DNA from: Siphonodentalium dalli
Taxonomy: Eukaryota; Mollusca; Scaphopoda; Gadilida; Siphonodentaliidae
DNA: 64,000 nucleotides
Direction: 5' to 3'
NCBI GenBank assembly: GCA_032622095.1
Contig: CP136069.1
Location: forward strand, 127,367,450-127,431,449
A model generated the notes under the pieces. That model was given only the letters and a program-made list of their open reading frames with translations, did not search any database and was not told where the DNA came from. The stretch's first letter is position 1. Each line of letters begins with the position of its first letter. Shown piece after piece: positions 2,648 through 20,990 of this stretch. A program made the translations under genes and the position numbers.

Positions 2648-3772
2648 AGAAGAATAGGGGGCTCGTTGGTGTCACATCTAAAAATAGAATTTGTGGGTCT
2701 AAAATTGGTTGTACTAAAATATTCCCAAAATATCAAAAACCCAAAAATTATTTTTCCAAAAAAAAAAATTCAAAACTTCCAAAATTTATTTTTTCCAAAA
2801 AATCCCAAAACTTCCAAAAAATTTCAAAACCCCAAAATTTCAAAAGAAAAAATTTCAAAACCCTCAAAATTATTTCTCTAAAAAAAAAAGTTTAAATAAA
2901 AAATTTATAACGAGTTTTCGGTTTCTGATAATCTCGATATTAAAAAATGTCGAACGTTAAATTATTTGCGTGTAATATCTTTCGTTATTTTTTTTTGTTC
3001 AAATATTTTTCATGAATTTATTAATCGATGTTTAGAAAATAGCTTTATTGGACATTGTGACCATCGATATGAATGCATACATTCCAGTGTTTATCGGACG
3101 CAGTTCATATAATTGTCATACCTGAAAATAGACACCATTACTTTTACATAAATAATAAAGAGCGTTTATTCTTTACACTCTCTCTACCCCAGATGAAGTT
3201 ATTGAGTATATGACAGGTGTGTATTATCGTGAATTATTGGAAGTATTGAGATGTACTATGTTGAATCACTAACGGTCGAAAATTGTAATGTGAAATTACA
3301 ACCCTCCAGAATGAATTGTCATATTCGCTGGAACATATTTTCAAGTAATCACACGCGACATTGGTGGTAACAATGTGTCTTTCACACCTTTGCTTTACCA
3401 AATGAATTATATTATTTCCCCGGTCACAGTTATATGCTATTCAGAAAACATATCGATTTAATGTCTGAACAAACGGGTTAGTATCAATTAAGGTTGATAA
3501 ACTGTGTCATTGTTAGCATTAACACGATAATTAGTTATCCAAAACATGCATACATATTACGTCAGGTCGTGAGACACTCAATTATAGACATTGCTTTGAT
3601 GACATTGTTATAACAACATTACGTAATAACCACTTATCACTCCATTCACACTTACGATCATATACCGAAACTCCAGGTAGCACCGATGATGTAACATTAT
3701 ATCACTGCTATTGTACCAATGATAGGTTCAGACATGTTCGATGTTTAGAAAATACATAATGTGCAGGTGTTC
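2648..3772 (+). repeat. Polinton left terminal inverted repeat
   Basis: It is inverted relative to 17711-18831, with only small indels and substitutions by eye, for example an 8-bp difference near 3190 and 18295. The outer 300 bp is extremely A-rich on this strand, with runs of AAAATTTC/CCAAAA-like short repeats. It contains one AATAAAGAGCGTT motif (3154-3166). A short frame (about 3072 on) resembles coding sequence but is shifted between the two repeat copies. Confidence 0.95.
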
Positions 3773-4033
3773 ACTTGAAAAGAGATTTTGTACACTCAAT
3801 CACAGACCAACGTGATAATACCAGCCCACACCCAACCCCCAACATCCATCAAACACCTTCACATCACTTACCAAAACCAATGATGTTATAAGAACTGTAG
3901 GTTTTTATAATATTATAGCTTACAGTGTCATCCTGGTAATTCATTTACAACAGCCATAACAAATGTTTACTTATGATGTATATAAGAACTGTATAGCTAC
4001 TAATAAATAGGACACAGTGAACACAAAAAAAAA
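3773..4033 (+). promoter_or_regulatory. Upstream region of the morphogenesis block; TATA motifs
   Basis: The 13-base sequence TATAAGAACTGTA occurs twice, at 3887-3899 and 3981-3993. The second copy is 40-55 bases before the ATPase ATG at 4034. The ATG is preceded by a run of ten A. TATAAGAA also occurs at 11246-11253, 39 bases before the cargo gene, and at 17591-17600. The duplicated TATA-like motif is a plausible core promoter for the + strand block, but this is inference from position and sequence only. Confidence 0.45.
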
Positions 4034-4699
4034 ATGGGTCCAATTAACCATAGCTCCATACCATTTGAACCTTGTTCTAGTATTTGCATCACCGGACCAA
4101 CTGGTTCTGGTAAGACGAGATGGGTCTACAGATTCCTGCAAAATCTTAATGGAATGTATTCTAGAGATCCACCTAAGAAAATAATGTACTGTTACGGTAT
4201 TTATCAAAATTTCTATGATGAAATTGAATCATCAATCGAAAATTTGGTCATGCATCAAGGATTACCTACCCAAACAGAAATCGAAGAATTTGCTGACGGT
4301 AAACATAATATGTTAATATTAGACGACTTGATGCATCGCATTATTGACCAAAAAGAGATTGAAACACTATTTACGCAGCAAACTCATCATCGCTGTCTTT
4401 CGGTGCTGTTTATTTCACAAAATGTATACGCACAAGGCAAGGCTGCGAGAACTATAGCCTTAAACACAGGATATCTAAATTTATTCAAAAATTTGAGGGA
4501 TGGATCACAAATTTCCACATTGGGTAGACAATTGTATCCCGGTAAATCTAAAGTACTCATTGATGCATACAAGGATTGTATGAAGAAACCATTTGCGTAT
4601 CTTATAATAGATATGTCCCCTCACACTGAGGATAAATACAGGCTACGAACAGACGTGTTTCCTAACCAAGACCCTATAATTTACGTACCTACTAGGTAA
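4034..4699 (+). CDS. Polinton DNA-packaging ATPase (FtsK/HerA, A32-like)
   Basis: The 221-residue P-loop ATPase is expected to pump element DNA into a capsid. Walker A is GPTGSGKT at residues 21-28, Walker B is NMLILDDLM at 92-100, and a conserved LFISQN motif is at 125-130, as in the A32/HerA-FtsK packaging ATPases of Polintons and NCLDV. Length and single-domain form are normal for Polintons. It is the first gene of the + strand block, with TATA-like motifs just upstream. It is intact, with no frameshifts. Confidence 0.95.
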   Translation: MGPINHSSIPFEPCSSICITGPTGSGKTRWVYRFLQNLNGMYSRDPPKKIMYCYGIYQNFYDEIESSIENLVMHQGLPTQTEIEEFADGKHNMLILDDLMHRIIDQKEIETLFTQQTHHRCLSVLFISQNVYAQGKAARTIALNTGYLNLFKNLRDGSQISTLGRQLYPGKSKVLIDAYKDCMKKPFAYLIIDMSPHTEDKYRLRTDVFPNQDPIIYVPTR

Positions 4700-4739
4700 T
4701 AAGAAGGGGACAGTATCGGAGCTGAGTCGCGACGATAAA

Positions 4740-5063
4740 ATGAGTCGATTATTACGTAATGAGTTGAATTTTGTCAGACTATTGACATCAACCCAATCAA
4801 GATCTCAACGAAACGCATTATTGACATCGATAACTAATAATCAGTTGAAAGTTCTGGTTGAAATTACGATCAATTTACTACATGATAGTTTAACAGTTAC
4901 AGTTCAACAAAAAGCTAAATTACGACGATATAAATCATTTTATATATTCTTGGGTGATAAATCTGTGAGTTTGTTGAGGAAAAGAAAAAGTGTGAATAAT
5001 CACTCAACCGCCATTGCTTTGATGTTGAACATCGTTGAACCTAAATTGAAACAGTTTTTGTGA
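4740..5063 (+). CDS. Small conserved-type Polinton protein, unknown function
   Basis: The 107-residue protein is largely helical by composition and basic at its C-terminal half (RKRKS near residue 80). It begins MSRLLRNELNFVRLL and contains a QLKVLVEITINLL segment. It lies between ATPase and integrase, where Polintons usually carry small genes of unknown role. Its TGA stop overlaps the ATG of the next gene by one base, so the block is tightly packed. I do not recognise a domain and assign no function. Confidence 0.75.
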   Translation: MSRLLRNELNFVRLLTSTQSRSQRNALLTSITNNQLKVLVEITINLLHDSLTVTVQQKAKLRRYKSFYIFLGDKSVSLLRKRKSVNNHSTAIALMLNIVEPKLKQFL

Positions 5064-5431
5064 TGGAGTCTGTGAAGAAAACTGTTTTGATCCCGTATGA
5101 AAGATATATGAGGTACACTGAAAAAAGTGAACACAAAAAAGTTTCATCGGAGTCTAACATTGAACACAGCAACATCTCGGCAAACAATAGTAGCCATTCC
5201 GATGAAATGGATAAAGAAAGGGACCCGATGAATAATCAGATTGTTAATACAGTTCAAACGACTGAACCTCAGGATGCAATCCAAAAATCAGAAGTTAACA
5301 CATCGAAAAAGACACATACCAAGCAAAGAAAAAAGAAAATAAGAGGGGTTAAGCGTGAAATATCTAGACCTCCGGGTATAATCGCCGGTAAACTGACCAA
5401 GATAAAGAACAAACGCTGGATATCACTGTGA
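5063..5431 (+). CDS. Lys/Ser-rich small Polinton protein, unknown function
   Basis: The 122-residue protein starts at the ATG at 5063, overlapping the previous stop by one base. It has a short ordered start (VLIPYERYMRYTEK), a polar Ser/Asn/Lys-rich middle that is likely disordered, and a basic end with RPPG and a terminal RWISL. The basic, disordered character would suit a DNA-binding or minor virion component, but that is inference. Its stop lies six bases before the integrase ATG. Confidence 0.7.
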   Translation: MESVKKTVLIPYERYMRYTEKSEHKKVSSESNIEHSNISANNSSHSDEMDKERDPMNNQIVNTVQTTEPQDAIQKSEVNTSKKTHTKQRKKKIRGVKREISRPPGIIAGKLTKIKNKRWISL

Positions 5432-5436
5432 ACAAT

Positions 5437-6546
5437 ATGGCCGATTGGAAAGATTATTTGAGTTCAATTTATTTTAATCCGGGTCACCCCGCATCGTACT
5501 CAGGAGCTACAAAGTTGCATCAGACTGTAAAATCTGAAAATAAGCACAACATTTCCAAGCGCGAGATTGTGGCGTGGCTACAAAATCATGAAAGTTATTC
5601 CCTGACAAAAAGTGTTAGACGAAAATTCCCGAGGTCTCGTGTTATTGTAAACGCTTCTGACAGTCAATGGGATGGAGACCTCATGGATATGAATGATGTT
5701 TCCAAAGACAACGACAATTACACCTACGTGTTAGTAATGATTGACATTTTTTCTAGGAAGTTATGGTGTGAAGCTATAAAGAGGAAAACTGCAATTAATG
5801 TGATCAATGCTATGAAACATATATTTGAAGGTGGAAGAACCCCGCGCATCCTCCGAACGGATCGCGGTTCGGAGTTCACAAACAAACGGGTCAAAAGTTA
5901 CCTTAAGGGTCTTCATATATCTCAAATTTTTACGCAAAACGAAATGAAAGCCAATTATTCGGAACGGGTCATAAAAACTATAAAGCAGAAGATTTCACGT
6001 TATATGATAAAGCATAATAATGCTAGATATATCGACATTCTACAAGATATTGTGAAAAGTTATAACCATACAATACATCGTTCGTTAGGCACCACCCCTG
6101 ACTCCATAACTGTTGAGAATGAAGATGAGTCTCGTCTCGATCAGTGGTTAATAAGACAGAAGGGAGGTGTTAAAAGTAAATTGAAGAAAAAGTTCAAATA
6201 CAATGTAAATGATATCGTTAGAATATCACACACCAAAGCAGTTTTTGACCGAGAATATTCTCAGAAATGGACTGGAGAGTTGTTCAAAGTGACTAAGAGG
6301 TTTTACAGGCAGAACATACCCTTGTATATATTGACAGATTTCTTGGATGAAAACATTGAGGGTGCTTTCTACGAGTCAGAACTTCAAGGGGTGCGCGTTG
6401 ATGACGAATCAGTTTACAGAATAGATAAAATTGTCAAAAAGAGGACACGAAAGGGTCAAACTGAAGTCCTGGTGCACTGGCATTCATGGCCTGACAAATT
6501 TAATTCATGGATTTTAGAGTCTGATGTCGACAGATATCAAAATTAA
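5437..6546 (+). CDS. Polinton integrase (retroviral-type DDE) with C-terminal chromodomain
   Basis: It is expected to join element ends to chromosomal DNA, making the 6-bp duplication. Counting from the ATG at 5437 (369 residues), the DDE residues are D81 (in WDGDLMDM), D142 (in RTDRGSEF) and E176 (in NYSERVIK). An SH3-like C-terminal region follows, then a chromodomain at about 320-365 (VYRIDKIVKK ... LVHWHSWPDKFNSWILE). A chromodomain may guide insertion to particular chromatin, as known for Polinton and Gypsy integrases. The frame is open 9 bases upstream from a GTG at 5428, but the first ATG is taken as the start. All catalytic residues are intact. Confidence 0.95.
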   Translation: MADWKDYLSSIYFNPGHPASYSGATKLHQTVKSENKHNISKREIVAWLQNHESYSLTKSVRRKFPRSRVIVNASDSQWDGDLMDMNDVSKDNDNYTYVLVMIDIFSRKLWCEAIKRKTAINVINAMKHIFEGGRTPRILRTDRGSEFTNKRVKSYLKGLHISQIFTQNEMKANYSERVIKTIKQKISRYMIKHNNARYIDILQDIVKSYNHTIHRSLGTTPDSITVENEDESRLDQWLIRQKGGVKSKLKKKFKYNVNDIVRISHTKAVFDREYSQKWTGELFKVTKRFYRQNIPLYILTDFLDENIEGAFYESELQGVRVDDESVYRIDKIVKKRTRKGQTEVLVHWHSWPDKFNSWILESDVDRYQN

Positions 6547-7024
6547 TAAGAGCAAGCTATCCGAGGGGGAAACCATTACAATCATGAATAATAGAACAGA
6601 TACCTTGACGAATATGTTTCAAACAGAACGAGGTCGTCTACATATGAATCTCCTTAAATGGATAGGAATTACTATTATGGTAATAACTCTGTCACTACCG
6701 GTTATATTAGTTCCAAAGAAGATACCACGTCAGACGGGGGACTATGAATTACGTCATACGAATGAGTCACGCCCCCATGATTACGAACAACACCCCTGTG
6801 GGTTCGTGAAAAAGTGGACAATACGATCAAACATTACTGTTACATTATGTAATAATCAAGGGCGCATTTATACACGCATTAGGCGAGTTGTGAATAACAC
6901 TCCCGCGATTATAAGTATTCCGTATAACCAGTGGTCTGCCTTCAAGTATATATTCAGTGATGTTGATAAAACTATAAGAGAAGAGATGAACATTGATTCT
7001 CATTTGAAACAAAATAGAAACTAG
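6524..7024 (+). CDS. Membrane protein with a PC4-like C-terminal segment (tentative)
   Basis: The 166-residue frame overlaps the integrase end by 23 bases. A second ATG at 6584 lies after the integrase stop and is an equally good start (146 residues). Residues 43-64 form one hydrophobic helix (LLKWIGITIMVITLSLPVIL), so the product is probably a single-pass membrane protein. Residues about 98-150 (IYTRIRRVVNN ... SIPYNQWSAFKYI) resemble the ssDNA-binding PC4/p15 pattern of a beta sheet followed by a Q-W helix. This is weaker than in the 10333-10944 protein. It lies between integrase and penton genes, a usual place for membrane or minor virion proteins in Polintons. Confidence 0.65.
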   Translation: MSTDIKINKSKLSEGETITIMNNRTDTLTNMFQTERGRLHMNLLKWIGITIMVITLSLPVILVPKKIPRQTGDYELRHTNESRPHDYEQHPCGFVKKWTIRSNITVTLCNNQGRIYTRIRRVVNNTPAIISIPYNQWSAFKYIFSDVDKTIREEMNIDSHLKQNRN

Positions 7025-7028
7025 TCAT

Positions 7029-7466
7029 ATGGATAATTATTATCTGTACCTGACTAGCGACGATTCCATAGATAAATATCCAGATAATCGTCCTCTCGAC
7101 TTCACAATAGAGTTACCTGGTGTATTAATATTGGAAGGAGCGTGGTTATGTTGTTTGAAAGACATAAACATAACTGACCATATAGACACGGATTTATTAT
7201 ATATTTGTTCGGACATATGTGGAGAATCAATAGCCTGCGACACATCATCCCCCATCCTCCGGGTTATAAAGAGAGACACACGGGATACGGGTCATTGGCG
7301 GAGTTTTGAGGACTCATTCTACATAAACGTAAGACAGGATAAACTTCAGCGTCTCAGGATTTTTATAAGAGGCGATAAACTTTCTAAAATAAATGCAGAA
7401 AAAAGAGTGACCTGTACACTACATCTGAAGAAACATGTCGATCACGTATATTCCAACCGATATTGA
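7029..7466 (+). CDS. Polinton minor capsid (penton-like) protein
   Basis: The 145-residue protein opens with YYLYLTSDDSIDKYPDNRP and continues with an IELPGVLILEGAWLCCLKDI segment. This is the recognisable start of the single jelly-roll penton proteins of Polintons. It would form the five-fold vertices of the predicted virion. Its end overlaps the next gene by 32 bases in another frame. It lies just upstream of the major capsid gene, the standard order. Confidence 0.85.
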   Translation: MDNYYLYLTSDDSIDKYPDNRPLDFTIELPGVLILEGAWLCCLKDINITDHIDTDLLYICSDICGESIACDTSSPILRVIKRDTRDTGHWRSFEDSFYINVRQDKLQRLRIFIRGDKLSKINAEKRVTCTLHLKKHVDHVYSNRY

Positions 7467-7764
7467 AAAGTGGAGAAAACATTTCAGGGACATGATTAAT
7501 GGGAAGTTAACGCCAGATAATGAGGGTCGCTACTTTATTGACAAAACTCAAAATAGCGATAGTGAAGAAGAAGACGTTCTAAAACCGCATATTAACGTAG
7601 TGACACCCATAGCGCAAGCGATTGAAATGGCCAAAGCCGAAGTTGCAGAAAATAAGTTGACACAAGCACGTAAGGCGTCCAAAAAACACAATAAGAGGGT
7701 GTTACCTAACGATTTGGCTCATAACCCTAAGAAAGTGAAAACCCCCTTTTTCGATAAACCATGA
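7435..7764 (+). CDS. Small Polinton protein before the major capsid gene
   Basis: The 109-residue protein overlaps both neighbours, by 32 bases with the penton gene and 4 bases with the capsid gene (ATGA). The start resembles a recurrent Polinton small protein (WRKHFRDMINGKL ... GRYFI). An acidic DSEEED patch is followed by a basic tail, KKHNKRVLPNDL...KKVKTPFF. The basic C-terminus with proline could act inside a particle, but no function is established and I assign none. Confidence 0.75.
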   Translation: MSITYIPTDIEKWRKHFRDMINGKLTPDNEGRYFIDKTQNSDSEEEDVLKPHINVVTPIAQAIEMAKAEVAENKLTQARKASKKHNKRVLPNDLAHNPKKVKTPFFDKP

Positions 7765-9023
7765 ATGAATACAGAGAGTACCATACCTCTAAATTGGCAT
7801 TATTTGAATCGCCCGCGGTTGACAGCGGAATACAAGCGACAGAATGGATAAACTACAGACCCGTGAATCAGCTGACAGACACTGCAGCTTTAGAGTTCAA
7901 TATTCCCGCCATGGCCACAACCTACATGGACCTCAAACGGACATTGCTACTTCTCAAACTCAAAATAACCAAGCAAGATGGTTCGGCTCTAACCGTTAAT
8001 GACGATGTGGGTCTGATAAATGCACCCCTACATTCAATATTTTCGCAGGTCGATTTGAATATACAGCAAGTTCCCGTGAGTCAAGTCGGGCCGAATTATC
8101 CATACAAAGCATATTTCGATGTACTCTTAGAAACTGAACGTAAGGAACAGCTACATGGACAAGCGTTCGAAAAGGACACGGCAGGTGGTATGGACCTGGC
8201 AGATTCGAAAAGCGGGAACTCTGGCCTGTATTACAGGTCCAAAACAACCCGTACTAGTCAAATAATGGATATTATGGGATCAATTCAGCTTGACTTCTTC
8301 CAACAGGACAAATTACTACTAAATGGTCTCCCGCTCACGTTAAAATTCTGGCAGACGAGAGATGTTTTTAGACTGATGTATGCGGGAACCACTGAGACAT
8401 ACAAGTTGAAAATACAGGAAGCTAATTTGAGACTAGCCACTGTGAAAGTTACCCCCGGTGTATTACTCAGTCATACTGAGTCACTCAAGAAAAAGAACGC
8501 GTGTTATCCTTTTTCAAAATCTATCATAAAGACGTATACAGTGTCAAAAGGTGCATTCAGTTTGGGAGAAGATAATCTATTTCAAGGAAACGTACCCAGT
8601 AGCTGTATTATTGGCTTAGTATCATCAAAGGCTGAAAGCGGTTCACGCGATAAGAACCCGTTCAACTTTGCGACTTTTGGATGCAACTTCGTCGGATTTT
8701 ACGTCAACGGGCAGTCTATGCCCGCCCAAGCACTCCAACCGAACTTTACCAGTAAGGAATATGTAGAAGCTTACAATACGATAATAAAAGATGCGAAACG
8801 AAAAGCCGTTCATATTACTTATGAGGATTATGCGAAAGGTTATTGCATATATCGGATAAACCCGCAAGGAATTAATCACGACAGGGTCATACCGCACAAA
8901 GGTCACACACGCCTCGAGATTAAATTCTCATCGGCTTTGAAAGACAATTGTACTGTAATCGTTTACGCAAAATTTCCTGCCTTTCTCAAAGTTGACGAGA
9001 GTCGTAAAGTTTGCATTGAATAA
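7761..9023 (+). CDS. Polinton major capsid protein (double jelly-roll)
   Basis: The 420-residue protein matches the Polinton major capsid family throughout: ALEFNIPAMATTYMDLKRTL near the start, LHSIFSQVDLNIQQVPVSQ, YPYKAYFDVLL, then NPFNFATFGCNFVGFYVNG and YAKGYCIYRINPQGI towards the end. The family forms a double jelly-roll trimer that builds the virion shell, by structural prediction for Polintons in general. It is intact. The ATGA junction with the preceding gene and a stop/start overlap (TAATG) with the protease at 9023 indicate a compact late block. Confidence 0.93.
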   Translation: MNEYREYHTSKLALFESPAVDSGIQATEWINYRPVNQLTDTAALEFNIPAMATTYMDLKRTLLLLKLKITKQDGSALTVNDDVGLINAPLHSIFSQVDLNIQQVPVSQVGPNYPYKAYFDVLLETERKEQLHGQAFEKDTAGGMDLADSKSGNSGLYYRSKTTRTSQIMDIMGSIQLDFFQQDKLLLNGLPLTLKFWQTRDVFRLMYAGTTETYKLKIQEANLRLATVKVTPGVLLSHTESLKKKNACYPFSKSIIKTYTVSKGAFSLGEDNLFQGNVPSSCIIGLVSSKAESGSRDKNPFNFATFGCNFVGFYVNGQSMPAQALQPNFTSKEYVEAYNTIIKDAKRKAVHITYEDYAKGYCIYRINPQGINHDRVIPHKGHTRLEIKFSSALKDNCTVIVYAKFPAFLKVDESRKVCIE

Positions 9024-9469
9024 TGAATACACGCGGACTCATGAGGGCGATAAATAGTTTCACAAACCATAATGAGATAGATGTTTGTCCCATAGACAAA
9101 TTACCTCTTTATATCCAATATCCCCGGATGTATATAGTTAACACAGACGAGAGTAGCCAACCTGGACGCCACTGGATATTGATGACATTCCAGGAACATA
9201 ACGCATCAGAGTTCTTCGACCCTATGGGATTAAAACCCGAGTGTTACAACGGACGATTTAAACACGTGTTGTTATTGAATGGACCCCGTTACGAGTGCAA
9301 TGCTTACAGATTACAGGGTTCTAATATATGCGGTCCCTATTGCATATACTTTGCATTCTATAAACTGTGCGGATACAGTCTAGAAAATATAATGAGACGT
9401 TTCAGTGCCAATAATTATATGTATAATGATTTAATTATTAAGGATTTTATGTTGAAATATATTCTGTAA
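9023..9469 (+). CDS. Adenovirus-type cysteine protease (maturation protease)
   Basis: The 148-residue C5/Ulp1-like protease is expected to process capsid proteins during maturation. The catalytic set is visible: H50 in GRHWIL, D66 in FFDPMG, Q98 in LQGSN and C103 in NICGPYC. It directly follows the capsid gene with a one-base stop/start overlap. It is shorter than the adenoviral enzyme but normal for Polintons. It is the last gene of the + strand block, with a likely poly(A) signal AATAAA downstream near 9527. Confidence 0.92.
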   Translation: MNTRGLMRAINSFTNHNEIDVCPIDKLPLYIQYPRMYIVNTDESSQPGRHWILMTFQEHNASEFFDPMGLKPECYNGRFKHVLLLNGPRYECNAYRLQGSNICGPYCIYFAFYKLCGYSLENIMRRFSANNYMYNDLIIKDFMLKYIL

Positions 9470-9796
9470 ACGATCTTCATTAGCGACAACGAGAGAAACA
9501 CTCTTTAAATTATATTATGTATATAAATAAAATATTGTAAATACAATCATTTATCGTTCTTATATTATCATATGTATGACTGGGAAAATATATATATATA
9601 TATATATGTATATGACTGGGTTGAGAGGGTGGGGTGGGGGGTCTGTGGAGAGAGTCCGGTGAGGTGGTATTAGGTCTGTTGTCAAAACAAACAAAAAAAT
9701 CTATTGTTTTTGTTTGTTTCGTCAAAAGCCAAAAAACAAAGGTATGTGAGCCATCCCCCCAAATGAAAAAAATAGATAATCGATACATATATATAT
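9470..9796. terminator. Convergent intergenic region with poly(A) signals
   Basis: The + strand protease gene and - strand TBP gene converge here. AATAAAATATTG near 9527 is a probable + strand poly(A) signal. On the - strand the AATAAA overlaps the TBP stop codon (9796-9801). Between them lie a TA repeat (9588-9608), a G-rich stretch and an imperfect hairpin, AACAAACAAAAA...TTGTTTTTGTTTGTT, at about 9685-9720. No gene is seen. Confidence 0.5.
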
Positions 9797-10321
9797 TTAT
9801 TCTGAAAGTAATTCAAGTTCACATATGGTAGGATATACAATATTTAACATCTGCTTTTCACTTTTAATGCCCGTAATCACAATTTTTCCATTATGAAAGC
9901 ATGTAAAATGTATTTTCTCACGTCTGAACATTGCCGCAGGGAACAGCTCTAATTCGTAAGAACATTCCATAAGTTTCACTAAAACGTTTAAGTCAAGTTT
10001 TCCATTTAACTGACAAAATGCAGACATTGTCAAAATTTTTATGGAATTTAATCTCACTCGCCAACCACATTTTTGAATATGTCGAGCGTACCGACGCAAT
10101 CGAACTCGTGTCTGTTTGACACTATCAGAACGCCCGTTAACAACGATTTTACCCGTGTTAAACACGAGGCAACATCCACCGAATTTAGAATGTTTCCATA
10201 CAACTCCGCTAAACTTTTTGGAATTGTATTCAATGTTCGAACAGCCGAGTGTCAAATCCCTTAGATTAATAGAACAGTTCAAATCTGCAGAACATACGAC
10301 ATTAGTTATTCGTAGCATCAT
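9797..10321 (-). CDS. TATA-binding protein (TBP) homologue encoded by the Polinton
   Basis: The 174-residue protein is almost exactly the size of the TBP saddle core and shows its two-fold repeat. Repeat 1 (about 3-90) has ITNVVCSADLNC, EYNSKKF, LVFNTGKIVVNG and a RRYARHIQKCGW helix. Repeat 2 (about 93-172) has KILTMSAFCQ, SYELELFP, CFHNGKIVITG and IVYPTICELELL. The four phenylalanines that kink TATA DNA in TBP are all present (F37, F54, F127, F142). It should bind a TATA-type promoter and recruit Pol II, but it is divergent and may have changed specificity. It starts 11 bases after the stop of the PC4-like gene, so the two are probably co-expressed. There is no N-terminal tail. It could be a captured host gene or a viral-lineage TBP. 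Confidence 0.9.
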   Translation of the reverse strand: MMLRITNVVCSADLNCSINLRDLTLGCSNIEYNSKKFSGVVWKHSKFGGCCLVFNTGKIVVNGRSDSVKQTRVRLRRYARHIQKCGWRVRLNSIKILTMSAFCQLNGKLDLNVLVKLMECSYELELFPAAMFRREKIHFTCFHNGKIVITGIKSEKQMLNIVYPTICELELLSE

Positions 10322-10332
10322 AGGAGTAATGT

Positions 10333-10944
10333 TTAGATCAATGTCTGCATCCGGTTAATCAAACATGTTCTATCGCCGTTGGGGCAGCATTCCATACATC
10401 TTAAAGATCCTTCCTGGTTTTGGTGATCGTCGGTCAAATAGCACTGCACAGTCTGATCAATTTCAGGAATATTAGCACACAGGACGAATATAGCTCCAAC
10501 TAGTTCTTCAAATTGGTCGAATGTCAGAGATATTCCGTATTTGGTTGCACACAAATCATCTGAATGTTCAGGCAGCCAATACCTGCGAATGTCAACACGC
10601 GGGATGCCGCTCTTTATCGTAATGAAGAAATTCCCTCCGATATGACGTCTCATGAATACATCGTCTTCACCGGTACGATAACTGACCACTTCTTGATGTA
10701 TATCTGCTAAGTAAGATTTCAACTCTTTGAATCTCCTTAGATTTAATGTTATTCCAGATTTTGTCGGAAATTTTTGGCCCGCAGAACTTTCACCGCACTC
10801 TCGTATGTGTATATACAGATTTCCCTGGAATCGGCCGTCAAATAGGAAAATGTCATTTCCTAACGGGGCTAAGCATTGTGGATGGAACGCCCTCTCGTTG
10901 GTTTCAGTCCGTTGGTTTCCTTCAACATCGGGTTGATCAGTCAT
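10333..10944 (-). CDS. Tandem PC4/p15-like ssDNA-binding coactivator protein
   Basis: The 203-residue protein has two PC4-type units. Unit 1 is about residues 29-90 (YIHIRECG ... FPTKSGITLNLRRFKELKSY) and unit 2 about 96-160 (FFITIKSGIPRVDIRRYW ... ATKYGISLTFDQFEELV). PC4 binds ssDNA and stimulates Pol II transcription. The TK.GI.L...F..L signature repeats in both units. A Cys-rich tail (CMECC...C) follows. Immediately downstream comes the TBP gene, which supports a transcription or DNA-melting role. Single-strand binding during protein-primed replication is an alternative. An acceptor-like TTATTTTCCAG lies just upstream of the ATG (10962-10972), so the mRNA may have a spliced leader. Confidence 0.75.
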   Translation of the reverse strand: MTDQPDVEGNQRTETNERAFHPQCLAPLGNDIFLFDGRFQGNLYIHIRECGESSAGQKFPTKSGITLNLRRFKELKSYLADIHQEVVSYRTGEDDVFMRRHIGGNFFITIKSGIPRVDIRRYWLPEHSDDLCATKYGISLTFDQFEELVGAIFVLCANIPEIDQTVQCYLTDDHQNQEGSLRCMECCPNGDRTCLINRMQTLI

Positions 10945-11050
10945 TGTTTTTTATTTTGAACCTGGAAAATAAGAAAACAAAACATTACTTATCAGTTACA
11001 CATCGAGAATACAAAAGTCCGAAAGGAGTCCGCTCATGTGTTTGGTGGAT

Positions 11051-11240
11051 GTTGGGTGTGGGGGGAGGCCCGCCCGCCCGCCCCGTCCGCCCTGGGGAGG
11101 GGAGGCCCGCCCGCCCGCCCGCCCGCCCCGTCCGCCCTGGGGAGGGGAGGCCCGCCCGCCCCGCCCGCCCCCGCCCGCCCCCGTCCGCCCTGGGGAGGGG
11201 AGGCCCGCCCGCCCGCCCGCCGCCGCCCGCCCCGCCCGCA
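11051..11240. repeat. GC-rich minisatellite upstream of the cargo gene
   Basis: Three to four tandem copies of a unit of about 35-45 bases (CCCGTCCGCCCTGGGGAGG) with variable CCCGC expansions make a block of extreme GC content inside an AT-rich element. All six frames are open through it, which creates spurious Pro/Arg/Gly-rich ORFs. It lies directly before the TATA-like sequence of the cargo gene and could act as a G-quadruplex or GC-box promoter element. Confidence 0.85.
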
Positions 11241-11245
11241 TACTC

Positions 11246-11284
11246 TATAAGAATAAGAAAATTGAGTCATTGAGTCAGTTCATT
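11246..11284 (+). promoter_or_regulatory. TATA-like box and paired TGAGTCA sites before the cargo gene
   Basis: TATAAGAA at 11246-11253 lies 39 bases before the ATG at 11285. Two overlapping-spaced TGAGTCA elements (AP-1 type) occur between them, in ATTGAGTCATTGAGTCAG. Such paired sites are typical of stress-responsive animal promoters. They are downstream of the TATA-like box, so their role is uncertain. Confidence 0.45.
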
Positions 11285-11917
11285 ATGGAGAGAATACTAC
11301 CCGCAGAAATACTGGAGAAAATATACAATCAGCTAATTGAAATGTCAACTATAAATCCAGAAATAAAAAAACAACTACTACACAATTGGTTTATAAGAGA
11401 AATTAAAATAATACTGAAGAATATAGATGAAGGATATTTTCCTGTACAACGATTGAAATCTTTGATTGCTAGGTCTGAATTTGAAACTGATTTCTTACAA
11501 GATATATTGAATCAAATGTTTTCAAATCGCTGGGTATTTAGAGGCGTTCCTAAAAACAAAATACATGACATTCGTGAACTTGTTGGAGATAACTTTGTGA
11601 GATTTGCAGAATACCGAGACTGGGTTTTCAATCAGAGAAGTTTTGAAGAAGTGACAATAATTCACGGATATATCATTCTCCGTGAACCGTGTACACTGTT
11701 CACGATTGAACAAATACTTAACAGCGGCGTGATTTTGGATTACATTTCTACAAGTAAATCGAAATATATTTCAGAATTAGAGAATGAATTAATCTGGTCA
11801 TTCGGAATAATCTGGAATTATGGTGACTCTTCGTTGAGAAAAAAAACAAAAAAAAACATAGTTGTTTTTGGTTTAAGTATAAACCAAAATGAGATTGTAC
11901 AGGAGGTAAAAATGTAA
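11285..11917 (+). CDS. Cargo gene of unknown function, paralogue of the gene in element 2
   Basis: The 210-residue protein starts at the ATG after the TATA-like box. The frame is open further upstream through the GC-rich repeat, but that extension is low-complexity and rejected. The N-terminus ILPAEILEKIYNQL is faintly F-box-like. The core EFETDFLQDI, RELVGDNFVR, GYIIL.EPC..FTIE and ISELENELIW is conserved with the 178-residue product at 35684-36220, by eye about 45% identical. It is the only + strand gene between the PC4 and PolB genes. The C-terminal 35 residues are absent from the paralogue. I recognise no domain; conservation between two different elements shows it is real and selected. 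Confidence 0.85.
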   Translation: MERILPAEILEKIYNQLIEMSTINPEIKKQLLHNWFIREIKIILKNIDEGYFPVQRLKSLIARSEFETDFLQDILNQMFSNRWVFRGVPKNKIHDIRELVGDNFVRFAEYRDWVFNQRSFEEVTIIHGYIILREPCTLFTIEQILNSGVILDYISTSKSKYISELENELIWSFGIIWNYGDSSLRKKTKKNIVVFGLSINQNEIVQEVKM

Positions 11918-12226
11918 TGATAGAAAAAAAACAACTAATTCATAACTAACCTGTATAGAATATTTCACACGCACAGTATAGGACTACCGAATTTGTAATT
12001 GTGAACTGGATCGGGTAGCATTTTATAGATCGAAAAAATGGACACCTTGGATAAATTGACCAATGACGGCCATACGTTTATAGTAATACGTGTTCATACA
12101 CGCTCGATGTTATCTAACATCGAACGTGTTTGAACAAGTCTTAGTATAATCCGATAACTACCATCGATCGAATGTTTACACTCTCATTACAACCTTGATC
12201 AAATATAGATGATTAAATTATATATA
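11918..12226. other. Intergenic region between cargo gene and PolB
   Basis: No gene is seen. It holds a - strand TATAAA (12022-12027) and a short near-palindrome around an AACATCGA repeat (about 12105-12130). PolB ends within GAG|GTACGT (about 12228-12235 on the - strand), which is a strong splice-donor sequence overlapping the last codons. The polymerase transcript may therefore continue into a further exon or leader. Confidence 0.4.
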
Positions 12227-15067
12227 TTACGTACCTCGTTCAATATCCATATGGCAGTGTATCCATGTTATCCAATCGTCTGCGTTTGGTATAAACAACT
12301 CGGTACTGTTTGTCCTCAGATCTGTTATATATTTTCTTTTTCCTTTCGATCTGCATGTTTTCCTTGGATTGGTTGTGGTGATGGGCACTGTGCTTCCAGA
12401 TTCTAACAGCTCTTTAATCGTCTGGAAATTGATGAACTGTGAATTTTCAAAGTTCAAAGAGAACCCCCGAACTTTACACGTCTCTTTAGCTTTATTTGTT
12501 CGATAAGCGTAATTCTTGGGGCCTCCAGAAACAAATTCTTCGATGTATTCATCAGGATCTAGCTCGCTGGTCAGTTGTCCCAAATAGTCGCCCAGTGGGG
12601 GATTAATTTGATCCTCAGTGCTGCTAAATACACAACTATCCGTGTCGTAATATAATACTCTTCTGTCCAAGGAATGAATAACTTCATATAGCATTAATCG
12701 AGCGTGACACGTCGTGAATGTGGCCAAATATATGTTATTCGCTGCTCCACAAGGCACACAGTCTTTTCGATAGGTCCACTCCATTTGAAGAATGTCATCA
12801 GTTATGACATGAAAATTTTCCATTTGTTTCATTGGATTTGAAATGAGCTGGAATAGATTGTCTTGTTCCGATTCATGGAAATACTCGGTCTGTTTGAAAT
12901 TCTGGTTTTGGCCTAGCTTCCCCCAAAATGAGTTGAGCATGAGCTTACTGATTTGCCTCAGTCCTGGATTCTTTTCGATGCTTTCTCTGTCCAGTAATAT
13001 ACCTTCGTTGTCTTTATACGCTGTGATGTATTTATCCATGTCTTCGTTAGATTTTATCCAATCCGGAGGACCGCTAGCCTGCTGCTTGAACTTTAAGAAT
13101 GTGTTTATATATTCCGTGAATAATCCATTTTGTTGGCTATAGTCTGACGTTTCGGTCCAATGGTATATTTCATATATTTTGAGAATCTTGTATCCCACTT
13201 TGACAGCTGTCTCCAGTTCAGGAATACACCAAACACCGGTAATAGCTCTCTGTTGGCACGTACACGTGCAAGGTCGTTGATTTTCATTATCAGCACAAGT
13301 CCTGCACAGTGGAAACTTCAGTTTACCTTCGGATCGATACGGTAATACGGGGTGATAGAGTCCATTAGGTGGTAAAATCTTGACTTGCGCTATTCCGAAG
13401 TAATCCTTAAGCTCGGTAATGTCATCGCCCAAAATGATTTTCGGGTGTCCAATCGGGTAGCGAGAGTATTTGAGCACACTTGGATACAGCGACGTGAAGT
13501 CAAAATAGTGTATTTTCTCACCAACGGCAGTTTTGTAGTGTAATTTAGTTGCATTCGTTCTGCCGCCGAAGAAACTGTCTCTAGGCTCTAGCCGGTCAAC
13601 AATGTCTAAGCTAGCAATGAAGTCACGAAGCTCCGGATTAGTCTTTCGAGCAGCGACGAACTCGTGTTCCCAAATGCACACATATTTCATACCTCGACTT
13701 TCTATAAACTTCTTCTTTTTCTGTGTGAGTCCGTATAATTCATTAGGTGTCTGGTTGGTTATCGGATTCTTGACTACGTCTCTATCGTGACTCAGACAAA
13801 GTTCACATCCATGGAATTGGCATCCGTGAAATTCGAATGCCGTGTTTAATTCTTCGCAATAGCCATCCAATCTGTACTTTGCATCATCGAGTTTCTTTTC
13901 ACGGCCGTTCAATGCGTGAGTTATGTGAACTTTGTCTTTGAACATCATCCATTCCAGCCATTGAATCGAACTTTTGCTGTATTGATCTTTATATGATGTC
14001 TTGGGGATTCGAGCTATCTGGGATTTGAGAAATTCTTTCTCACGAATTTGGACGCCGCGTTCATCTTCAAGTTTTGTGTCTTGAACCCATTCACCTTTGT
14101 ATAAAATAGACAAAGTTCCATCTTTACATTTAGCAGGAAGCCACGTTTTCCCTTCGGTACTTAGACGCACTCTCCATTCCTCGTCGACGAATTTCGTTCT
14201 GAATATACCCATACATACCGATGCGATTGTAACGTATTGGAATGGATCAACAGCACCAACCAGTTTGAACTTCATATCGCCAGAAAACTCGTCAATTACG
14301 GGTTGTATATTTCCAGTCGCATTCATGATGTGGGTTCTGAATTTTATGCAAGCTTGTCTCAAAATATTGACATCACTACGACAATAATCCGATAATTCTT
14401 TCTTGAAGATGAAAACTGCATTTGTTTGAGCAGCGTGCCATTTCGTGAAGTCTTTTCGTTCAGCCACACTCATATAATCAGCGCCGTAATATTTGGCATC
14501 CGGATAGGGTCCTTCATAATTCTGGTTGGCTGATTTATTGAAAAAGTGCGGGAACCATCCTTTTTTCTCGCCATCCAGACCGAAAGTTTTCGGTAACAGT
14601 GCCAACTTCATTGGTAGAAAGCTGAGACTGTCCAGTACTTTGATATGAAGATCTTTTTCCACGTATAGGTACATCAATTTGGATCCATTATATATAACTT
14701 TGGGTCTCAATGATTGATCAATGAGATATTCCATGAGAAAATATCCATCGTAACCCTTGAAGTTGTGAGCCAGTGCTATGAATCCCTTGTGTTGTTCCGA
14801 GAATAACCATTTTCCAAACTTTTCACCGGTATCAGGACCGCTAAATATAACCTCTCGGAGTCCGCATGTATCCGAACATAAATTTCGGTCACTCTTCTTC
14901 TTCTTCTTCTTCGCATCGCTGTCGATACACGCATCACATAGAGGTCCGCAATTTCTACAGTTCGGTTTCACTTCCAACGATTCATGCATGCATTCGTAGC
15001 AAGCTGTTTGGGCGACGAGGAAGTTCGGTGTATGCTGGACTTTTCCGCACCATGTTTTAAAACAGTT
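12227..15067 (-). CDS. Protein-primed family-B DNA polymerase (PolB), exon 2
   Basis: Exon 2 adds 946 codons, in phase 0, to the exon at 15724-17466, for a predicted protein of about 1,527 residues. It replicates element DNA. In whole-protein numbering, Exo II is AHNFKGYDGYF (about 681), Exo III YCRSDV (about 809), Pol A YFDFTSLYPS (about 1102), Pol B KLMLNSFWG (about 1289) and Pol C YYDTDS (about 1387). A DGY ... EFHGCQFHGC insert at about 980-1005 is the nuclease-like segment often seen in Polinton PolB. A CC/CxxC Zn-binding cluster straddles the splice site. All polymerase aspartates are present. The C-terminus ends at a splice-donor-like sequence and lacks the usual ending, so a last small exon may be missing from this model. 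Confidence 0.92.
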   Translation of the reverse strand, partial: NCFKTWCGKVQHTPNFLVAQTACYECMHESLEVKPNCRNCGPLCDACIDSDAKKKKKKSDRNLCSDTCGLREVIFSGPDTGEKFGKWLFSEQHKGFIALAHNFKGYDGYFLMEYLIDQSLRPKVIYNGSKLMYLYVEKDLHIKVLDSLSFLPMKLALLPKTFGLDGEKKGWFPHFFNKSANQNYEGPYPDAKYYGADYMSVAERKDFTKWHAAQTNAVFIFKKELSDYCRSDVNILRQACIKFRTHIMNATGNIQPVIDEFSGDMKFKLVGAVDPFQYVTIASVCMGIFRTKFVDEEWRVRLSTEGKTWLPAKCKDGTLSILYKGEWVQDTKLEDERGVQIREKEFLKSQIARIPKTSYKDQYSKSSIQWLEWMMFKDKVHITHALNGREKKLDDAKYRLDGYCEELNTAFEFHGCQFHGCELCLSHDRDVVKNPITNQTPNELYGLTQKKKKFIESRGMKYVCIWEHEFVAARKTNPELRDFIASLDIVDRLEPRDSFFGGRTNATKLHYKTAVGEKIHYFDFTSLYPSVLKYSRYPIGHPKIILGDDITELKDYFGIAQVKILPPNGLYHPVLPYRSEGKLKFPLCRTCADNENQRPCTCTCQQRAITGVWCIPELETAVKVGYKILKIYEIYHWTETSDYSQQNGLFTEYINTFLKFKQQASGPPDWIKSNEDMDKYITAYKDNEGILLDRESIEKNPGLRQISKLMLNSFWGKLGQNQNFKQTEYFHESEQDNLFQLISNPMKQMENFHVITDDILQMEWTYRKDCVPCGAANNIYLATFTTCHARLMLYEVIHSLDRRVLYYDTDSCVFSSTEDQINPPLGDYLGQLTSELDPDEYIEEFVSGGPKNYAYRTNKAKETCKVRGFSLNFENSQFINFQTIKELLESGSTVPITTTNPRKTCRSKGKRKYITDLRTNSTELFIPNADDWITWIHCHMDIERGT

Positions 15068-15723
15068 CTGAAAAGTAATAATTGAACGTTTTAACCTCTA
15101 GCTTTATCGATAATAAAAAAACCAAAATAAAACGTCTACACTTTGTTCAGATAATTATTTATAAAAAAAAAATGTTTTGGTATAGGTTCAACGTTAATAA
15201 AGAGCGTTGACGTATTACTATTGTTCGTTGGTTGATCCTAAAAATTACTCGTTCCAATCTACGTGTCAATATTAAAAATGTATATCATGATCCGACCATC
15301 GACATATAGCCTGTATAATTGTCGATTCAAGCACGCAGCTATCAAGTTCAATAAAGTTAAAACAATTATATATTACGTTAGTTTACTATATAACAATTAC
15401 AAATCTCTTTTCACAAAAAAATATGTTACACATTTTCAATGTGTCAAGAATTAAAAAAGTTAATTACTCGATTTAACATCTGTGACTCAGTTGAATTTTA
15501 ATATTGGGACCCCTTAACTTTGGTCGAATTCAAGTATGTTATTGTTATATGGTAACCGCACACGCGAGGTAACAGCTAAAGAGCGTTCAGCGATAATCTA
15601 ATATAATTTAAAAAAATGCAAGAGCGTCTCTACTTATGCGCGCCTTTAATAAAGAGCGTTACGTTATCGTGATTTCGACTGTAATGTGTTACATATATAT
15701 ACTACAATTAGGTTAAGACTCAC
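15068..15723 (-). other. PolB intron (656 bp)
   Basis: On the - strand the donor is CAG|GTGAGT and the acceptor TTACTTTTCAG, phase 0 on both sides, uniting the two halves of the polymerase within a Cys-rich cluster. In-frame stops occur within the intron. It contains AATAAAGAGCGTT at 15196-15208 and 15648-15660 and a variant AAAGAGCGTT at about 15578, all on the strand opposite to PolB. Confidence 0.85.
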
Positions 15724-17466
15724 CTGACACTTAGCACATTTCTTGCATATATGATCCTCTTTACAGTCCTGGCAATCCTTTGTATGTAAGGGTGAATATC
15801 CTTCGGAACATTCCAATATATCGTGTTGAATGGTTTCGAAGTCGAAGAAACAGAATTTAGCTTTTTCATCATCAGTAACGGGAGGTATGGCCCTTACATA
15901 GCATTCGTGTGCTCCCATTGTGTATTTGTCACACGATCTACAAAATGTTTCTCCGCACACATGTTGATTCGGACGTCTTTTCCCTCTCTCCATGACTTTT
16001 GTACAGTCCAAGCATTTCCACCATTTTTGACAAGGAGCTGTCGTTTCTCCCGAAGCTTGATTAATAGGTTTTGCTTTATGACGCACGAAACATTGATGAG
16101 ACATACACGTCATATTACAATCTGAACAATGTTCTTTGTTTTCACTTTGTTCACATTTATCACTTTTACACACGAAACAGGTGTGTTCACAATAATGCTT
16201 TCCTTTGGTTGAATAATGTTTTAAACAATGCACACAGAAATATGCTGCGCTAAAGAATCCCGTTATGGATTGTATAGCGTGGAAATGTTCATTAGCAGTG
16301 AGATATAAATATATCACGGGTCTTTCTATACCGTCTGTAGGCGCACTGGTAATGAATTTATTACCCAGTCTAGCACTGACGACTAGTATTGTCAAATTCA
16401 GAGTTTCCTCGAATGCTTTTAGATCTGCTAAACTGGATGGTCTGTCTGTTGATACACCTGCGATGACACTAATTGCTTTGGCTAATTTTCCTTGTTCAGT
16501 ACGTTTTTTGTGCTGCACATTTTTGTAATAATTGATCGGTACTTTTCTGTATTCCATGATGAGTTGTAAATTATTTCTGGTTCCTCTATTCTGTGTTATT
16601 TCTAGCCATTCATCAGGACTGCAAATATTTAATTTACACCAACATGTGGCGATAGCCCGAGCCATACACATATTGTCGGTATTTTCAATCGTAACGATCG
16701 ATGTTTTATTTCTTAGATTGTCACTTTCATCATGTAAAGCCGTTATCTTCCTCCGTGCTCCGCCTTTAGGTAACTCGATGGTGCCTATATCTATGCGGAA
16801 ACTTTGATTAACAGTCAGTGTTTGGTTGCTGTTCAAAACGAGTTCGATTCTGTCAATCACAGTGTTAGCATTTAACGTTTGCAACGTTTGTAACGGAACT
16901 ACTATAGGGTTGTCCAAACTCTCATTGTGAATGATAACTCTGCCAAGATCATTGTCAGCCAAATTTCCACGAGCTCTTTGAATAGTGTCCTCGAACATTG
17001 AATGTAGATTCCTGTATATGTCGATTAACTTTTTCTCTTTGTAAATTTCATCTAATTTGATCTCATATGTTCTCTGTGTTGCCAAATTGTTTCCGAAGGT
17101 TCGTTCACTCCTTTTGCGAATGCTATATCCGGTTATTTGAATATCAGAACTGTCGGCTGTTTGATTGTCTGATTTTACGGCTTCATCTTGATGAGGTGTC
17201 TGTTCGTCTTCTCGGTTTTGTAATCCTGATGGTCCAGCTGTACCGGGTTGTGAGTTGTTAACATCATTTTTAGGCGCATCATGTTCTCCGTATCCGATTT
17301 GGTTCGGCCATGGGTCATCTCCTGAACAAAGCGTAGATGCTTCAATAATATCTTCATCCAGTTGATAAGCTACGATAGCCTTGTCGTATTCTTCGATGTC
17401 TTGCAGAATACATTCTATTTCATAAATTTCATCCACTGTCAGAGGTGTCATTATTTCTTCAGCCAT
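15724..17466 (-). CDS. Protein-primed DNA polymerase (PolB), exon 1
   Basis: The 581 codons carry the N-terminal region of the Polinton polymerase. An acidic and polar start (about 1-115) is likely disordered. A conserved DNMCMARAIA ... LAKAI region follows, then a long Cys/His-rich section (about 400-535) with many CxxC pairs. The Exo I motif FDFE lies at about 541-544, with a further Cys cluster running into exon 2. The ATG at 17466 is preceded by TATAAAAATATATATG on the - strand (17531-17546), a good TATA box about 65-80 bases upstream. Confidence 0.92.
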
Positions 17467-17710
17467 TTTTCGAGAAGTCCTGAGTAGTGATTACAACGGC
17501 GTCTATTCACTATATGGAATACAGCTTAGTCATATATATTTTTATACCATAAAATCCCGAACATATGCAAGCACGGATGACGTAACATTATATAAGAATA
17601 TATATATGAACGTAATGTATGAATAGGCCGATAATTGGTTTTGTACGGACGAGGCAACATTAGTTGTTTAACTGGTTATTATTACGTAACCCTGTGTTCC
17701 CCCCCGCTGA
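17467..17710 (-). promoter_or_regulatory. PolB promoter region
   Basis: The strand complementary to 17531-17546 reads TATAAAAATATATATG, a strong TATA box for PolB. On the + strand TATAAGAATA occurs at 17591-17600, facing the TIR. The rest is AT-rich without a gene. A short C-run adjoins the TIR boundary at 17700-17706. Confidence 0.55.
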
Positions 17711-18831
17711 GAACACCTGCAGATTATCTATTTTTCTAAACATCGAACTTGTCTGAACCTATCATTGGTACAATAGCAGTGATATAATGTTACATCATCG
17801 GTGCTACCTGGAGTTTTCGGCATACAAAATGGTCGTAAGTGTGAATGGAGTGATAAGTGGTTATTACGTAATGTTGTTATAACAATGTCATCAAAGCAAT
17901 GTCTATAATTGAGTGTATCACGACCTGACGTAATATGTATGCATGTTTTGGATAACTAATTATCGTGTTAATGCTAACAATGACACAGTTTATCAACCTT
18001 AATTGATACTAACCCGTTTGTTCAGACATTAAATCGATATGTTTTCTGAATAGCATATAACTGTGACCGGGGAAATAATATAATTCATTTGGTAAAGCAA
18101 AGGTGTGAAAGACACATTGTTACCACCAATGTCGCGTGTGATTACTTGAAAATATGTTCCAGCGAATATGACAATTCATTCTGGAGGGTTGTAATTTCAC
18201 ATTACAATTTTCGACCGTTAGTGATTCAACATAGTACATCTCAATACTTCCAATAATTCACGATAATACACACCTGTCATATACTCAATCTGGGGTAGAG
18301 AGAGTGTAAAGAATAAACGCTCTTTATTATTTATGTAAAAGTAATGGTGTCTATTTTCAGGTATGACAATTATATGAACTGCGTCCGATAAACACTGGAA
18401 TGTATGCATTCATACCGATGGTCACAATGTCCAATAAAGCTATTTCTAAACATCGATTAATAATTTCATGAAAAATATTTGAACAAAAAAAAATAACGAA
18501 AGATATTACACGCAAATAATTTAACATTCGACATTTTTTAATATCGAGATTATCAGAAACCGAAAACTCGTTATAAATTTTTTATTTAAACTTTTTTTTT
18601 TAGAGAAATAATTTTGAGGGTTTTGAAATTTTTTCTTTTGAAATTTTGTGGTTTTAAAATTTTTGGAAGTTTTGAAATTTTTTGTAAAAAATAAATTTTG
18701 GAAGTTTTGAATTTTTTTTTTGGAAAAATAATTTTTGGGTTTTTGATATTTTGGGAATATTTTAGTACAACCAATTTTAGACCCACAAATTCTATTTTTA
18801 GATGTGACACCAACGAGCCCCCTATTCTTCT
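17711..18831 (-). repeat. Polinton right terminal inverted repeat
   Basis: This is the inverse of 2648-3772. It ends CCCCTATTCTTCT at 18831 and is followed by TGCGCA. It carries the inverse AATAAAGAGCGTT motif at 18316-18328. On the - strand a 63-codon frame (18409-18218) is open here but shifted in the left copy because of an 8-bp difference, so it is probably a relic rather than a gene. Confidence 0.95.
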
Positions 18832-18837
18832 TGCGCA
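18832..18837. repeat. Polinton target-site duplication, right (TGCGCA)
   Basis: This TGCGCA matches 2642-2647. The Helitron repeat unit resumes immediately afterwards with GACGAGAT. Confidence 0.9.
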
Positions 18838-20263: not shown

Positions 20264-20990
20264 TCTCTTATATATTTTGAAGACCTCTGTCTGTCTGTCT
20301 GTCTGTATGTCCTTTATAGAATTGAAAACGGCTGGCTCGATTGAGTTCAAACTTCATATCTAAGGGTAAAATCCCACGGACACCGTCGGCGTCGCGTTTT
20401 GGAGAAGCTCAGACCACCCGTTCTCCACTCTCAGTCACAAAAACGTTAATCAAGTGATAATTTAATGAGCGTTTGTTTTTGACGCATCGCTATAAAGAGC
20501 GTTTGTTTACCATTCAATCTCAGTCACAAAAAACGGCACTGCGGTGGTTAATCAAGTGATAATTTAATGAGCGTTTGTTTTTAACGCATCGCTATAAAGA
20601 GCGTTTGTTTACCATTCAACGTTATTAGCATCTGCAGAGAGATATACGGGAGCATCTAATATATAGAAACGGGTGGAGCTATCGACTTAAAATTTGGTTT
20701 GTGAATGTATCTTGCCCCGGATACGAATTTTATCGGGTCGCCGAGCCCGTGCGACGCCAGGTTCGCGCATGCGCAGACGAGATCTCGGAAACGGTCGGAA
20801 ACGGGTGGAGCTATCGACTTGAAATTTGGTATGTGAATGTATCTTGCCCCGGATACGAATTTTATCGGGTCGCCGAGCCCGTGCGACGCCAGCTTCGCGC
20901 ATGCGCAGACCAGATCTCGGAAACGGGTGGAGCTATCGACTTGAAATTTGGTTTTTGAATAGCCCGGACAACATCGGGCTCATCGGCTAG
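20264..20990 (+). mobile_element. Helitron D
   Basis: It starts TCTCTTATATATTTTGAAG immediately after the CTAG of copy C and ends with GCCCGGAC-AAC-ATCGGGC and CTAG at 20987-20990, followed by T. It contains an internal direct duplication of about 115 bp carrying ATAAAGAGCGTT twice (20492-20503, 20594-20605), then two 123-bp units with a small internal duplication near 20790. Confidence 0.75.

Follow-up and report, generated by a model that had tools for sequence, protein, structure and literature searches.

Can a Polinton own a TATA-binding protein (TBP), and to what use would the element put it? The question is raised by a minus-strand gene in the 64,000-nucleotide stretch of Siphonodentalium dalli DNA that was analysed here as a whole (the window). 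The first-pass annotation had described a 174-residue product with both halves of the TBP saddle and four DNA-kinking phenylalanines, lying well inside a Polinton. Its frame, length, coordinates and quoted motifs were reproduced from the sequence. The feature is larger than the annotation had noticed, since a tandem PC4 gene adjoins:

9797 to 10321, minus strand: TBP gene, 174 aa, two lobes in a single uninterrupted frame
10333 to 10944, minus strand: tandem PC4 gene, 203 aa with two PC4 domains (PF02229, E = 4.5e-15 for the whole)

Both TBP halves are present: PF00352 matches two separate parts of the protein with 110.8 bits (cut-off 22.9; E = 2.9e-32). F37, F54, F127 and F142 align with the four phenylalanines of human TBP that kink DNA. 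A phmmer search of the PDB returned 35 distinct sequences, all of them TBP chains or TBP-containing fusions (best E 1.1e-24). The predicted structure has the saddle fold; its best cellular structure matches are 29-32% identical, and identity to human TBP is 34%. The profile match, whose failure had been named as fatal to the idea, is overwhelming, and together with the phmmer and structure matches it rules out chance resemblance; the element protein is almost certainly a genuine TBP. TBP-like structures were also matched in a viral fold library, the best at 22% identity, which leaves close kinship with a known viral TBP unsupported.

The ends of the Polinton, which the annotation had called intact, were refined to 2648-18831. 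The element is made up as follows:

2648 to 18831, no strand assigned: Polinton element, 16,184 bp, with inverted repeats, 6-bp duplication, integrase and family B polymerase
2642 to 2647, no strand assigned: left target-site duplication TGCGCA, read from the flanks; the insertion is in a 122-bp tandem repeat
18832 to 18837, no strand assigned: right target-site duplication TGCGCA, read from the flanks
2648 to 3772, plus strand: left terminal inverted repeat; aligned with the right repeat (1,138 columns), it shows 97.2% identity
17711 to 18831, minus strand: right terminal inverted repeat, from the same alignment
4034 to 4699, plus strand: P-loop ATPase, probably an A32-type packaging ATPase (AAA_22 E = 2.5e-4, Pox_A32 E = 0.0039, all below Pfam cut-offs; P-loop GPTGSGKT visible)
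5428 to 6546, plus strand: integrase with chromodomain (rve E = 5.5e-15, Chromo E = 7.5e-8)
7029 to 7466, plus strand: 145-aa ORF, possible minor capsid protein as guessed from position and size; no family match
7761 to 9023, plus strand: 420-aa ORF whose position and size make it a candidate major capsid protein; no match in Pfam, PHROGs or PDB
9023 to 9469, plus strand: adenovirus-type cysteine protease (Peptidase_C5 E = 4.4e-4, 20.4 bits against a cut-off of 21.3)
12227 to 14989, minus strand: family B DNA polymerase, C-terminal part (DNA_pol_B_2 E = 1.9e-51)
15664 to 17466, minus strand: 600-aa ORF, by position probably the N-terminal polymerase part; no family match with its pieces searched apart

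The terminal inverted repeats are about 1.1 kb each. The protease start overlaps the stop of the 420-aa ORF (TAATG), and a PDB search with that capsid candidate was empty as far as E 10. Pfam gave nothing over cut-off for nine further ORFs or frames. The polymerase, of the predicted protein-primed family B type (DNA_pol_B_2), seems to be split between the ORFs at 12227-14989 and 15664-17466 with 674 nt between them, by an intron or by decay. The integrase with chromodomain, the family B polymerase, the inverted repeats and the 6-bp duplication are those of a Polinton/Maverick, to which the putative packaging ATPase and adenovirus-type protease would add; a double jelly-roll major capsid protein, if present, would be the 420-aa candidate. 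The TBP and tandem PC4 genes are what sets this element apart. Elsewhere in the window, tandem repeats that are related to one another (unit lengths 122 and 132 bp) lie at 338-625, 2251-2647 and 20666-20926, one array hosting the Polinton. Two ORFs at 52997-55510 match reverse transcriptase (RVT_1 E = 1.1e-38) and zf-RVT and are probably those of a non-LTR retrotransposon.

The PC4 and TBP genes are on the same strand, the PC4 stop lying 11 nt before the TBP start. Searched separately, the two PC4 halves score 33.0 and 25.2 bits, each at or above the cut-off of 25. The PC4 domain is shared with cellular PC4/SUB1, from which the element protein differs in having two domains per chain and a cysteine-containing tail; its similarity to human PC4 is weak (E 0.0021). 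A protein search with it gave 87 candidates, none of them significant, and its predicted fold (pLDDT 34.3) is too poor to rely on. Cellular PC4 binds single-stranded DNA and acts as a homodimer, and for the latter reason the tandem protein could be a one-chain dimer.

The TBP belongs to a wider family. A public protein search found 30 relatives at 38-58% identity, one of them named as from a Sedimenticola genome bin, and we infer that they also sit in Polintons. Scans of IMG/VR (with the TBP family, human TBP, the polymerase and the ATPase) and of GTDB genomes found no related locus. The family alignment consists of 28 relatives and the window TBP (29 sequences; the short P0028 and P0031 were left out), which are 22-37% identical to human TBP. 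A FastTree analysis split these 29 from the human, host, 4wzs and haloviral TBPs on a branch of 0.92 with local support 0.999, in a tree with a thin outgroup and a long haloviral branch. In the host genome (2.23 Gb, nine contigs), 150 of 600 candidates from a TBP search were scored and listed; among these best 150, one is a host TBP exon and 149 are element-type copies, found on all nine contigs. An open frame of at least 184 codons with no stop inside the match was found for 139 of the 149 element-type matches listed, which lean to intact copies because only the best candidates were listed. We fetched 27 of the 149 listed copies, several picked for low scores, the window copy being one more. 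In every one of the 27, matches to the capsid candidate, protease, TBP and PC4 lie within 3.2-4.2 kb, and 22 have a full open TBP frame.

Comparison with diverged copies points to constraint on the TBP gene. Against copy L030 there are 11 synonymous and 8 nonsynonymous differences (pN/pS 0.20; Fisher p 4e-4), and against L031 4 synonymous and 1 nonsynonymous (pN/pS 0.07). For L030 and L031 in that order, pN/pS comes to 0.21 and 0.30 in the capsid candidate, 0.26 and 0.20 in the protease and 0.22 and 0.21 in PC4; the polymerase part gives 0.13 (L031), an integrase piece 0.48 and a 166-aa ORF 0.63 (L031). Against constraint speaks the pooled pN/pS over 28 mostly young copies, 0.53 for TBP vs 0.21 for PC4, the TBP value being raised because the sample was partly picked for low TBP scores. 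On balance, TBP appears to be kept about as well as the capsid candidate and the protease. The PC4 gene of L030 is split by about 1.1 kb of other DNA, and L030 is therefore itself a decayed copy. At the DNA level L031 (G000:C9:29899371-29907370) is 99.0% identical to the window in TBP and 94.0% in the polymerase part (pS 0.036 vs 0.191), a contrast that is a sign of recombination between element lineages.

On the DNA-facing side of the TBP, the kinking positions are Phe in 25, 28, 26 and 26 of the 29 aligned sequences. The central polar contacts are Asn7/Asn62 in the first lobe and Thr98/Thr150 in the second, where cellular TBPs have one Asn and one Thr per lobe (human and 4wzs by alignment, archaeal chains by eye); the Asn + Thr arrangement is absent from both lobes of the element TBP. 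In yeast numbering, N159 is changed to T in 29/29, T124 to N in 22/29 (Q in 4), V161 to S in 28/29 and L205 to T or S in 25/29, while N69 and V71 are kept in 29/29 and T215 in 28/29. These positions touch bases in TBP-DNA structures. Among the 27 fetched copies residue 62 is Ser in one (L002). Such near-fixed changes suggest that the DNA target has changed and is constrained. The central contacts set the element TBP apart from the cellular TBPs compared, not from the TBP fold family. With the TBPs of eukaryotes and archaea it shares the two-lobe fold, four kinking Phe, TFIIB-facing glutamates and a basic N-lobe helix; it differs in having no N-terminal extension, gaps in the second lobe, and the Asn/Asn and Thr/Thr central contacts.

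The partner-facing side is well kept across the family. The TFIIB-facing glutamates E123 and E125 are each present in 27/29 aligned sequences, and Arg76 and Arg80 of the basic N-lobe helix in 25/29 each. According to PMC7221094, the two C-lobe glutamates are TFIIB contacts that are poorly kept in viral TBPs, the basic N-lobe helix residues are lost there, and almost all TBP-bearing viruses also have TFIIB, poxviruses excepted. No TFIIB was found among the element ORFs scanned, a set that takes in 8 of 41 extra reading frames (60 codons or longer). The giant-virus type of TBP system has its own TFIIB and diverged TFIIB contacts, whereas the element has kept the contacts and has no TFIIB among its scanned ORFs. 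Because the glutamates and basic residues are kept and the scanned ORFs hold no TFIIB, the element TBP looks built for host TFIIB. The first-pass annotation had proposed that an element-borne TBP could redirect Pol II to the element's promoters or free the element from host control. This is plausible, and the residue pattern argues for use of host TFIIB over full independence from the host.

We propose that the element TBP acts at the element's own promoters, where it helps host RNA polymerase II to form preinitiation complexes, a reading to which we give a probability of roughly 0.6. PC4 and TBP would be made together, and the TBP would bind and bend minor-groove DNA, though its base preference would be altered at the centre of the site and in the half that the C-lobe touches. 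The TBP would then recruit host TFIIB, given that none is seen among the element ORFs scanned, and after it polymerase II, to the element promoters. PC4 may help to activate these promoters, or may coat single strands made in replication. The outcome would be a promoter class poorly served by host TBP, for instance that of the capsid genes, like the late system of beta- and gammaherpesviruses (PMC7498053), with early expression possibly going through host TBP and late expression through the element TBP. It is tempting to speculate further, at what we consider somewhat less than even odds, that an old, widespread lineage of Polintons in animals possesses an initiation kit of two genes, the tandem PC4 and a TBP whose minor-groove recognition has been rewritten, and that this kit defines promoters that host RNA polymerase II and TFIIB read only with the element TBP. 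It would be the transposon counterpart of the herpesvirus late-gene switch.

The promoter sequences themselves speak in part against the proposal. Both outward promoter regions have common TATA-like boxes, usable by host TBP in principle. The TATAAGAA sites pointed out in the earlier annotation do occur, five times in the element. Allowing 2 mismatches at most, the extended 13-mer TATAAGAACTGTA was found 5 times vs a mean of 3.06 in shuffles, which does not exceed chance. A 19-bp sequence, recognisable in part of the copies, is a candidate cis element:

3838 to 3856, plus strand: 19-bp sequence, candidate cis element before the plus-strand genes, common to 11038-11056
11038 to 11056, minus strand: 19-bp sequence, 93 nt before the PC4 start, found within 2 edits in 18 of the 27 fetched copies

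Two occurrences in the window compare with 0.07 expected (at most 3 mismatches), for a pattern that was itself drawn from those two sites. A GC-rich tandem repeat occupies 11034-11239, between PC4 and the plus-strand ORF at 11283; L031 lacks this repeat in its matching portion, the alignment being interrupted at 11033/11209.

Alternatively, TBP and PC4 could serve replication, packaging or integration, the TBP as an architectural DNA bender and PC4 as the single-strand-binding protein of a protein-primed replication. The DNA_pol_B_2 polymerase, the single-strand binding of PC4, the fact that no separate single-strand-binding protein was recognised, and central base contacts unlike those of transcription TBPs are all in line with such a role. 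It is unlikely, however, in view of the surfaces needed for transcription only, the TFIIB-facing glutamates and the basic N-lobe residues, being kept in most of the family. The combination of kept partner surfaces and altered DNA face would fit a decoy, which would sequester TFIIB, TFIIA or promoters of the host and dampen its transcription or defence while doing nothing for the promoters of the element. The altered residues are nearly fixed across the 29 sequences, however, and the kinking Phe mostly kept, so DNA binding appears to be selected; we regard a decoy as a doubtful explanation, with perhaps one chance in eight or so left to it. That the TBP works with BRF-type factors on units transcribed by RNA polymerase III or I, whether in the element or in the host, is very improbable: TFIIB and BRF proteins do bind the same TBP surface (PMC7221094), but the element ORFs are protein genes, and no small-RNA gene turned up when the window was scanned with Rfam at gathering scores (0 matches). 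Finally, a recent retrocopy of host TBP, private to a single insertion and useless to the element, would account for the TBP ORF being intronless whereas the host TBP exons lie apart, and it is rejected with hardly any doubt on copy number (149 element-type matches listed, with the shared gene context in 27/27 fetched), on divergence from the host exons (33% identity over 83 positions, vs 86% between host and human over the same stretch), on the 30 relatives and on the constraint between diverged copies.

In the best host TBP exon, at L001/L032 (G000:C6:155354090), identity to human reaches 92% over 61 residues. It drops to 68% in the following exon, and a stretch of 8 kb showed no exon beyond that. 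This host locus may be a paralogue or a broken copy.

A TBP borne by a selfish element has partial precedents. TBPs are known from several families of large DNA viruses (PMC11410667; PMC7221094) and are found in 59% of mirusvirus genomes (PMC10132985). Those are likewise selfish elements with a TBP of their own, but among viral TBPs the TFIIB contacts tend to be lost, and a TFIIB encoded by the virus tends to be present (PMC7221094). In phage records, 3 records were matched, all TBPs of haloarchaeal viruses. The haloarchaeal tailed viruses HJTV-2 and HRTV-9 also carry the gene on a mobile or viral genome, but their TBPs are of archaeal type with a diverged first lobe (HJTV-2, 21% identity). 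The herpesvirus vTBPs (KSHV ORF24 and homologues) are similar in being TBP-type factors that come without an RNA polymerase of their own and use host Pol II. ORF24 is a much larger protein, whereas the window element has only a TBP core and a PC4 gene. The N-terminal domain of ORF24 binds the Pol II CTD, and the protein acts with at least 5 other viral proteins on TATT promoters, according to PMC7498053.

The suggestion that no Polinton with a TBP was known has stood so far, in that no report of one was found. In the examined literature that pairs Polintons with a TATA-binding protein, the TBP is placed in mirusvirus-type elements; none was found that pairs Polintons with PC4, and the main text of those Polinton-type papers that were searched mentions neither TATA, TBP nor PC4. 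The novelty is provisional, coverage of the literature being partial, because subscription papers, supplements and Repbase notes were outside the search. Provisionally, a TBP that belongs to the element, is constrained, contacts DNA in an altered way and has PC4 next to it is a variant of known Polintons and of known viral TBPs. TBP is among the most conserved eukaryote proteins, the human and 4wzs cores being 77% identical, and a lineage in which the fold and the TFIIB contacts are preserved but the central base contacts have been rewritten offers a natural experiment in TBP's choice of DNA. It is relevant, too, to the question of how a Polinton, having no RNA polymerase to bring along, controls the timing and the limits of its own gene expression. 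The key prediction can be addressed with one small protein.

The TBP-PC4 segment appears to be repeated in some copies. In one element (L033, G000:C2:85769500-85778999) a unit of about 2.77 kb stands three times head to tail; every unit matches window 9703-12402 with TBP, PC4 and the ORF at 11283. This is a tandem amplification of the segment unless it is an assembly artefact. A second pair of TBP matches lies 2.87 kb apart at C2:195210661 and 195213530, and at G000:C9:9107971-9114987 the TBP-PC4 copies L009 and L018 face opposite ways with about 2.8 kb between them.
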